Source of the DNA: an uncultured Pelagibacteraceae bacterium
Lineage (GTDB): Bacteria; Pseudomonadota; Alphaproteobacteria; Pelagibacterales; Pelagibacteraceae
NCBI GenBank assembly: GCA_902608385.1
Contig: CACLNT010000001.1
Location: 1 to 64,000 of the forward strand
Reading direction: 5' to 3'
DNA length: 64,000 nucleotides
The translations under genes and the position numbers were made by a program. Below, one piece after another: positions 43,833 to 45,627 of the stretch. Each line of letters begins with the position of its first letter. Position 1 is the stretch's first letter. The notes under the pieces were generated by a model. That model was not told the DNA's origin and ran no database searches. It worked only from the letters and a program-made list of their open reading frames with translations.

Positions 43833-43850
43833 AATTGCGTACTTTTTATT
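43825..43850 (+). terminator. Intrinsic terminator overlapping the stop of the HD-domain gene
   Basis: CGCAAT-AAA-ATTGCG hairpin (43825-43839) followed by TACTTTTTATT. Confidence 0.7.
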
Positions 43851-44223
43851 TGCTAGGTAGACCCGATTTTTTCCAACCCAGATTTTCAGAGTTGCCTAAA
43901 AAGCCATCTGAAATATTTACACAATTGTAACCTTCTTTTGTTAAAAGTTCTGCAGTCGATTGAGATCTAACACCCCCCATGCATATGGTTAATATTTCAT
44001 GGTCTTTTTCAATATTTAGCTTTTTAAAATCTTCAATAAAATTTTGATTAAAAGTTTTGTCAGCAAACTGAATTGTTAAAAAATGGGTTTTTAATAAAAT
44101 TTTTTCACCATCTGGCTTTCCATCAGAATTCCATTCTTCTTCAGTTCTCACATCAAGTAACACTGATTTAGGATTATTTTTTACATAATCCTTTACCTCT
44201 TTGCTTAGCATTTGTTTAATCAT
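43846..44223 (-). CDS. Rhodanese-like domain protein
   Basis: LLDVRTEEEWNSDG, ICMGGVRSQSTAELLTKEGY. Confidence 0.92.
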   Translation of the reverse strand: MIKQMLSKEVKDYVKNNPKSVLLDVRTEEEWNSDGKPDGEKILLKTHFLTIQFADKTFNQNFIEDFKKLNIEKDHEILTICMGGVRSQSTAELLTKEGYNCVNISDGFLGNSENLGWKKSGLPSK

Positions 44224-44251: not shown

Positions 44252-45310
44252 TTATGCTTTATTTCTATAGTCTTTTATATGTTTTGGAATTCGTTTATTT
44301 TTTCCAAACATATAATGATTTTCCATGTTTTCTCTATATTTGCTAGCAGGAACTTTTAATCCCACTGATTCAGCAACTTCTCTAATTAACATAGGGGTTG
44401 CTCCACAACAAACACCTAAATAATTTATTCCTAAATCATAAGCTTCTTTTGCAAACTGTCCAATTTCATATCTGCTACATTGCATTGGATCTAAGGCTGT
44501 AGGAAAAGTTGTTTCATGAGGTGAAGGGCAAGAACATCCATTATCATCAGGCAAATTAAAAAAAGTTGGATGATCATCAGTTGTTCTATAAGTGATGGGT
44601 AGTCCAGCAACATGGCACTTTAGCTCTTTTCTAATCTCTTTTAGATAAGGCATCATTGTATTGGGTCCCCTATGACAATTCATCCCTACTACGTCTCCTC
44701 CTATTTGCTCTAATTCCTTACAAGTATCAAGAATAGAAATTCCATCTCTCATAATATTTTCACCATATGGAGCAATAGTAATCACAGACGGAAGTCCGGT
44801 TTCTTTCATTATTTTTAAAGCTGTGTATGCTTCTTCTGCATAATAAAAAGTTTCACCAATTAAAATGTCTGCGCCTTCATCTACTGCCCAAGCCACCATT
44901 TCCTGAAACATTTTTTCTACTTCTAATTGGGATTTTTTATCATTTTGATTCCAAATGTTTGAATTTGAAATATTTCCAGCCATTAAATTTTCTTCTTTAC
45001 CCATTGGACTAATTGCAACATCTTTTGCAATTTGTAATGCTGCTCTATTAAGAGGTTCTAGCAACTCCTCTTTGCCAATAACACGCATTTTTTCTCTGTG
45101 TCCGTTATAAGTAAATGCCTGGACAATATCTGAACCTGCGTGCTGAAAATCTCTATGTAAATTTAATAAAGCTTCAGGATTTTCTAATGAGACCATTGGA
45201 ACAAACTCTCCAGAAGACATATAGCCTCTCTTTTCTATTTCAAAAAGAAAACCTTCTGCACATATAACGGGACCTTTGTCTAATCTTTCTTTTAAACTTC
45301 TTTTTTTCAT
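44252..45310 (-). CDS. bhmT: Betaine/homocysteine S-methyltransferase family protein
   Basis: Homocysteine-methyltransferase Cys motifs (GMNCHRG, GVCCGATP), ICAEGFLFEIEKRGY; start moved to ATG 45310 with GGAG 7 nt upstream (track start 45322 is a TTG). Confidence 0.9.
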   Translation of the reverse strand: MKKRSLKERLDKGPVICAEGFLFEIEKRGYMSSGEFVPMVSLENPEALLNLHRDFQHAGSDIVQAFTYNGHREKMRVIGKEELLEPLNRAALQIAKDVAISPMGKEENLMAGNISNSNIWNQNDKKSQLEVEKMFQEMVAWAVDEGADILIGETFYYAEEAYTALKIMKETGLPSVITIAPYGENIMRDGISILDTCKELEQIGGDVVGMNCHRGPNTMMPYLKEIRKELKCHVAGLPITYRTTDDHPTFFNLPDDNGCSCPSPHETTFPTALDPMQCSRYEIGQFAKEAYDLGINYLGVCCGATPMLIREVAESVGLKVPASKYRENMENHYMFGKNKRIPKHIKDYRNKA

Positions 45311-45379
45311 TTTTTTCTCCAAACTAATGGAGAAAAGAAGCCCATTAAATTAACTAAATGGGAAATAAATTGAGCCCTT

Positions 45380-45440
45380 TTCTCCTTTTTAGTGCTTTAG
45401 CTTTTACTGGGTGCACAATATGGTTCAAATACCCGGTTTA
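45380..45440 (-). promoter_or_regulatory. SAM-V riboswitch aptamer
   Basis: Minus strand ACCGGGUAUUUGAACCAUAUUGUGCACCCAGUAAAAGCUAAAGCACUAAAAAGGAG: H-type pseudoknot GGGU/ACCC (45431-34 with 45409-12) and GUGC/GCAC (45413-16 with 45392-95), GCUAAA core; 5' of bhmT. Confidence 0.85.
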
Positions 45441-45458
45441 TTAATTGAGAAATGATTC

Positions 45459-45488
45459 AAAAAAAAACCACCTACTAAAGAGGTGGTT
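45459..45488 (-). terminator. Intrinsic terminator downstream of the SAM-II aptamer
   Basis: Minus strand AACCACCU-CUUUAGU-AGGUGGUU followed by a run of U. Confidence 0.93.
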
Positions 45489-45497
45489 CACGTGGAA

Positions 45498-45558
45498 ACA
45501 TCTATTTAGCAGGATTTTATATAGCGCCCCGCAATTCGACTTAAATCAGCGCTGATGT
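45498..45558 (-). promoter_or_regulatory. SAM-II riboswitch aptamer
   Basis: Minus strand ACAUCAGCGCUGAUUUAAGUCGAAUUGCGGGGCGCUAUAUAAAAUCCUGCUAAAUAGAUGU: P1 AGCGC/GCGCU, pseudoknot GCGGG/CCUGC, conserved GCUGAUUUAA and GCUAAA segments. Confidence 0.9.
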
Positions 45559-45627
45559 AAAGTTATTGTAAGCAAATTAATAAATCAATGATAAAAAATA
45601 TATATATAAATTTATAACAATTTTTAA

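Follow-up and report, generated by a model that had tools for sequence, protein, structure and literature searches.

A candidate anti-Shine–Dalgarno relay between a distant SAM-V aptamer and bhmT in the tandem SAM-II/SAM-V leaders of Pelagibacteraceae

In 'Ca. Pelagibacter ubique' HTCC1062, the bhmT gene is known to be preceded by a SAM-II aptamer, a terminator and a SAM-V aptamer, in this order (PMC2704228; the founding SAM-V paper, Poiata 2009, as cited in PMC5069961). Both the RNA and the protein of HTCC1062 bhmT are increased under sulfur limitation (PMC5069961). Binding of SAM by the SAM-V aptamer of this leader has been shown (PMC6061858), and probing of the full tandem RNA has been published (PMC11508383). 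This literature treats SAM-V as an element that itself conceals the ribosome site, and the two hairpins described below as H1 and H2 do not occur in the passages of PMC2704228, PMC5069961 and PMC11508383 dealing with the HTCC1062 bhmT leader.

We analyzed the bhmT leader of an uncultured Pelagibacteraceae bacterium in a stretch of 64,000 nucleotides (referred to here as the window). The elements follow each other in the same order as in HTCC1062, namely SAM-II, terminator, SAM-V and bhmT. The SAM-II/SAM-V tandem before bhmT is already published for Pelagibacter and is not new. The features of the window are the following:

45565-45594, minus strand: putative sigma-70-like promoter, TTATCA - 18 - TACAAT, ending just before SAM-II
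45485-45562, minus strand: SAM-II aptamer (RF00521), also conserved before bhmT in relatives
45553-45549 (AGCGC) with 45527-45523 (GCGCU), minus strand: P1 of SAM-II
45532-45528 (GCGGG) with 45513-45509 (CCUGC), minus strand: P2 of SAM-II
45472-45512, minus strand: predicted antiterminator, SAM-II core CUGCUAAA (45512-45505) with terminator strand UUUAGUAG (45479-45472)
45459-45489, minus strand: intrinsic terminator, a hairpin and U tract (U9), with the same hairpin in relatives
45379-45443, minus strand: SAM-V aptamer (RF01826), with GGAG at 45385-45382 and the CC of P2a at 45423-45422
45329-45385, minus strand: H1 hairpin, SAM-V strand GGAGAAAAG (45385-45377) with CUUUUCUCC (45337-45329) and an upper stem; it folds in prediction and its pairing is conserved
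45329-45337, minus strand: switch strand CUUUUCUCC (anti-SD), shared, as it pairs with either the SAM-V GGAG or the bhmT SD
45316-45340, minus strand: H2 hairpin, UCUCCA (45333-45328) with UGGAGA (45321-45316), masking the bhmT SD
45317-45320, minus strand: Shine–Dalgarno (SD) sequence GGAG of bhmT, 6 nt before the ATG
44252-45310, minus strand: bhmT, betaine-homocysteine S-methyltransferase family, ATG start
43846-44223, minus strand: rhodanese-domain protein, directly downstream of bhmT

The preliminary description of this locus had claimed a SAM-V aptamer at 45380-45440, built as a pseudoknot of the helices GGGU/ACCC and GUGC/GCAC, and had named an Infernal search with the Rfam model as the check. 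The cmscan search of the whole window gave a match to SAM_V RF01826 on the minus strand that scored 68.3 bits against a gathering threshold (GA) of 41, with an E-value of 5e-9, and covered the full length of the model (1-66 of 66). It was the sole match above its gathering threshold in the whole window. The outcome named in the preliminary description as refuting the claim, absence of a match to the model, did not occur. Both helices were located on the minus strand (GGGU 45434-45431 with ACCC 45412-45409, and GUGC 45416-45413 with GCAC 45395-45392), and the covariance-model alignment contained an H-type pseudoknot with the conserved UUUGAAC, UAUUGUGC and CUAAAGCACUAAAAAGGAG. P2a was placed by analogy with PMC6061858. 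The aptamer core and the GGAG at its 3' end are shared with the SAM-V of metY (PMC6061858). The copy in the window would probably bind SAM. The same search found no second SAM-V in the same genome assembly (1.18 Mb in 37 contigs, 85% complete).

The surroundings of the aptamer agree with the tandem that had been described, as the SAM-II aptamer and the terminator hairpin with its U9 tract lie just 5' of SAM-V and bhmT lies 3' of it. However, bhmT does not follow directly, as had been claimed: the SAM-V GGAG (45385-45382) is separated from the ATG at 45310 by 71 nt, and no ATG, GTG or TTG occurs 3-14 nt after this GGAG. The gene's SD is thus not placed in or beside the aptamer with a start codon within about 10 nt. 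As this placement is given as what is 'typically' found (PMC2704228), the gap rules out the usual mechanism but not membership in the SAM-V class. The layered transcriptional and translational control by SAM proposed in the preliminary description agrees with the published model (PMC5069961, PMC11508383). What it missed is that bhmT uses a ribosome-binding site other than the mimic in SAM-V, and the translational step therefore needs an additional device.

The bhmT product matches homocysteine methyltransferase models at scores under the curated cut-offs, and its orthologues are approximately 70-97% identical across Pelagibacteraceae, which places the genome in SAR11. When the 59 open reading frames of at least 100 aa in the window were inspected from their first ATG, just one of them, bhmT, was preceded by a GGAG SD at the usual spacing. 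The rhodanese-domain gene at 43846-44223 is possibly co-transcribed with it.

For the comparison with related genomes, 109 distinct bhmT leaders were classified by the distance between SAM-V and the bhmT ATG. In 40 leaders (type A) the distance was 3-10 nt and in 57 (type B) it was 64-137 nt, while 12 fell outside the rule. It should be noted that L159 is type A by the rule and type B by eye, and that L158 and L173, which are outside the rule, are type B-like. Type B, to which both the window and P. ubique HTCC1062 belong, makes up 57 of the 97 SAM-V-bearing bhmT leaders. The type B leader L070, with 69 nt from GGAG to ATG, is very probably that of HTCC1062, since its bhmT start at 1127292 adjoins the published intergenic region 1127293-1127553. 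Meanwhile, each of the 29 scored metY loci has its SAM-V 4-6 nt upstream of the ATG; therefore, among the SAM-V genes examined, type B is restricted to bhmT. The metY layout (PMC6061858) is also without the relay proposed below, in contrast to the window with its 71 nt. Among the bhmT leaders L041-L187, the SAM-V subtype UUUAAC was present in 38 of the 40 type A leaders and UUUGAAC or a near form in 55 of 60 type B leaders. The leaders L068, L076 and L077 have SAM-II without SAM-V; two of them, L076 and L077, have a terminator U tract that passes directly into the GGAG before the ATG.

The insert of the type B leaders contains two alternative hairpins. H1 (the SAM-V GGAG with UCUCC) and H2 (UCUCC with the bhmT SD) are mutually exclusive. 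H2 of the window was obtained by folding with the SAM-V GGAG made unavailable, and it could be extended by pairing 45340-45334 with 45303-45297 inside the coding region. Of the 57 type B leaders, 55 have CUCC just before the second SD, that of bhmT. By itself, the pattern TCTCC-GGAG-ATG is not rare, as a search for it gave 3 matches versus 3 for a reversed-pattern control. The median length of H1 was 20 bp. Stem sequences vary widely among the type B leaders while the pairing is retained. As the MAFFT alignment of the inserts misplaced the stems, pair counts from it were not used and arm-swap tests were performed instead. With GGAG and CUCC left out, the H1 arms (47 distinct pairs) had a mean energy of −10.9 kcal/mol versus −6.4 kcal/mol after exchange of arms among leaders (0 of 2000), and the values for 14 divergent representatives were −10.6 versus −6.4 (0 of 5000 permutations). 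The H2 arms gave −10.5 for their own pairs versus −9.0 for permuted ones (0 of 2000). Thus, the alternative pairings are conserved, and the anatomy and conservation of this platform are well supported by the compared sequences.

Two Rfam families matched in the insert, mir-7940 and STnc630, were rejected, as E-values of 0.2-0.3 are at the level of chance. A pyrimidine motif (CCCUC, UUCCC or CCUCU), picked after inspection of the loops, was seen in 40 of 46 distinct H1 loops versus 3.8 expected from shuffles and lies at approximately 45365-45355 in the window. This conserved motif is left unexplained by the relay.

The effect of SAM on these pairings was approximated by barring the four bases of the SAM-V GGAG from pairing as a mimic of the SAM-bound state, since ViennaRNA models neither the pseudoknot nor SAM. 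In the type B inserts, the bhmT SD was predicted to be unpaired with a mean probability of 0.43, which fell to 0.05 once the GGAG was barred, versus a change from 0.26 to 0.19 in shuffled inserts. The mean drop in SD exposure was 0.39, compared with 0.03-0.11 across 20 shuffle rounds, and for the window insert the probability fell from 0.44 to 0.00. In this model, the change in SD exposure runs in the direction needed by an OFF switch. P2a has just 2 bp in the crystal-structure model and is hence in competition with the longer H1. In about one-third of the type B leaders, H2 was predicted to win even with a free GGAG. These are mainly the 17 leaders of the genus g4, together with L067, L152, L154, L156 and L163. 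Because H2 wins in both states there, the relay alone would not open those leaders, chiefly those of g4.

The SAM-II part of the leader was examined in the same way. The match to RF00521 is below the gathering cut-off (22.5 bits versus a GA of 36; E-value 0.005 in a 351-base search) and, taken alone, the score in the window is weak; the element recurs before nearly all of the orthologous genes examined. The P1 and P2 pseudoknot and a CUAAA core precede the terminator, and the layout is the same in relatives. The 3' end of SAM-II is CUAAAUAGA in the window, whereas its HTCC1062 counterpart is CUAAAGCGA. A second SAM-II-like match in the same genome (G000:C5:78468-78542, L002) scored 25.2 bits, which is sub-threshold and above the score of the bhmT leader. 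The promoter agrees with the consensus at 9 of 12 positions in a scan whose number of matches was no higher than chance, and its position matches that of TTGACA/TATATT-like boxes at the same place in relatives. The terminator hairpin and its U9 just 5' of SAM-V span 45489-45465, and 0.3 such terminators were expected by chance.

The antiterminator pairing was predicted at −9.7 kcal/mol in the window and at −15.6 kcal/mol in HTCC1062 (L070). Over 48 distinct arm pairs, the own arms gave −12.8 versus −10.2 for permuted arms, with 0 of 2000 permutations as low. The pairing is kept despite sequence change, with GCG/CGC in most leaders and UAG/CUA in others. In the full-length tandem RNA, SAM-II reportedly showed no response to SAM, its binding of SAM being blocked by the linker (PMC11508383). 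The conserved antiterminator could explain this block.

Taken together, we consider it probable that the bhmT leader combines two SAM sensors with two outputs: SAM-II would act through the antiterminator and terminator, and SAM-V through a relay of H1 and H2. Without SAM, the 3' core CUGCUAAA of SAM-II would pair with the 5' arm of the terminator as the antiterminator; SAM binding to SAM-II would release the terminator, and transcription would stop. In transcripts without SAM, the SAM-V GGAG would be paired with UCUCC in H1 and the bhmT GGAG would be left free. With SAM, the SAM-V GGAG would enter P2a of the aptamer fold and set UCUCC free, and the freed strand would form H2 with the bhmT GGAG, blocking translation. 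Both arms would thus be OFF switches for one ligand. The action of the relay, its direction and its effect on translation, is what we infer from the predicted folds.

The classical action of SAM-V, in which SAM hides the bhmT SD directly within the aptamer, is the published mechanism of the class (PMC6061858, PMC2704228), and its layout holds for metY and the 40 type A bhmT leaders. For the window it is very unlikely: the SAM-V GGAG is too far from the ATG for this layout, no start codon follows within 3-14 nt, and a separate GGAG belonging to bhmT stands 6 nt ahead of the ATG. It is somewhat less improbable, though still quite unlikely, that the insert serves another purpose, such as mRNA stability or a site for a protein or other signal (for instance, the pyrimidine loop), and that SAM-V acts on it weakly. 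The loop motif, which is outside the reach of the relay, and the high stability of H1 would fit this explanation, but a mere stabilizer needs neither UCUCC between two GGAG copies nor the outcome of the SD exposure test, both of which are predictions of the relay.

An explanation that we regard as unlikely, albeit less so than the two above, is translational coupling: ribosomes would bind at the SAM-V GGAG to translate a short upstream frame ending over the bhmT start. Translation of this frame would melt H2 and supply ribosomes to bhmT, and SAM would stop both by hiding the GGAG. An ATG is found 3-14 nt after the SAM-V GGAG in 31 of the 57 type B leaders, and nearly all of these frames end just inside bhmT; yet the remaining 26, the window among them, have no ATG within 14 nt. 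Moreover, the bhmT start by itself leads one to expect short frames that stop over ATGAGTAA, which makes the overlap weak evidence. HTCC1062 (L070) has an upstream frame of 23 codons, whereas the nearest candidate frame of the window (MGFFSPLVWRKK, approximately 36 nt after the GGAG) is without an SD. The ATG is also lost within close groups, being present in L067 and L069 but absent from L104, L110, L111 and L146. As it is not conserved among the type B leaders, the upstream frame was rejected as a general mechanism. Coupled translation nevertheless looks like a real alternative in g4 (L078-L088, L090-L095), where an ATG 6 nt after the GGAG opens a frame of 20-21 codons ending 4-8 nt inside bhmT, and in L058, L059, L074 and L075, where a frame of 44-48 codons starting 3 nt after the GGAG reaches 1-14 nt into bhmT. 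The inserts of these four leaders are long (127-137 nt), and their upstream frames begin with codons similar to those at the start of type A bhmT (ATGAGCAAT), as though the insert had split a former N-terminus.

When the type A and type B labels were placed on the bhmT protein tree, approximately 15 changes were needed, of which at least 10 are forced by well-supported branches; L159 was labelled A and is probably B, and relabelling would slightly lower this count. The leaders L041 (type A) and L104 (type B) have the same coding start and different aptamers and platform. That their aptamers differ while their coding starts agree points to whole-leader exchange, and the idea that type A arose when the stretch between the two GGAG repeats was directly deleted was rejected on account of such pairs. 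The simplest reading of the A/B distribution would be an exchange of whole leader cassettes. A wider picture can be offered only tentatively, as we find it possible and rather doubtful: a three-layer SAM unit in which SAM-V acts remotely, its own SD having turned into an anti-anti-SD that signals to a second, real ribosome site, in which leader cassettes of both kinds were often swapped before bhmT, and to which some lineages added the upstream frame.

Translational riboswitches with anti-SD and anti-anti-SD strands exist, e.g., the thiM-type TPP switches. There, as in the proposed relay, the ligand sets the partner of the anti-SD strand. Unlike in those switches, the anti-anti-SD here would be the former SD of SAM-V, and two SD copies would compete for one strand. 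As far as PMC2704228, PMC5069961, PMC6061858 and PMC11508383 show, the relay from SAM-V to bhmT would be a new translational riboswitch output.

SAM-V is regarded as the textbook aptamer for the direct hiding of a ribosome site, and its tandem form has been studied best in the leader of HTCC1062 bhmT. Should the relay be true, this leader itself works otherwise than assumed, and the aptamer-only constructs omitted the segment acting on the gene. The bhmT leaders would also offer a direct test system for the refitting of one aptamer with a new output. SAR11 bacteria, which are among the most abundant in the sea, would then control their supply of methionine by more elaborate means than has been assumed.
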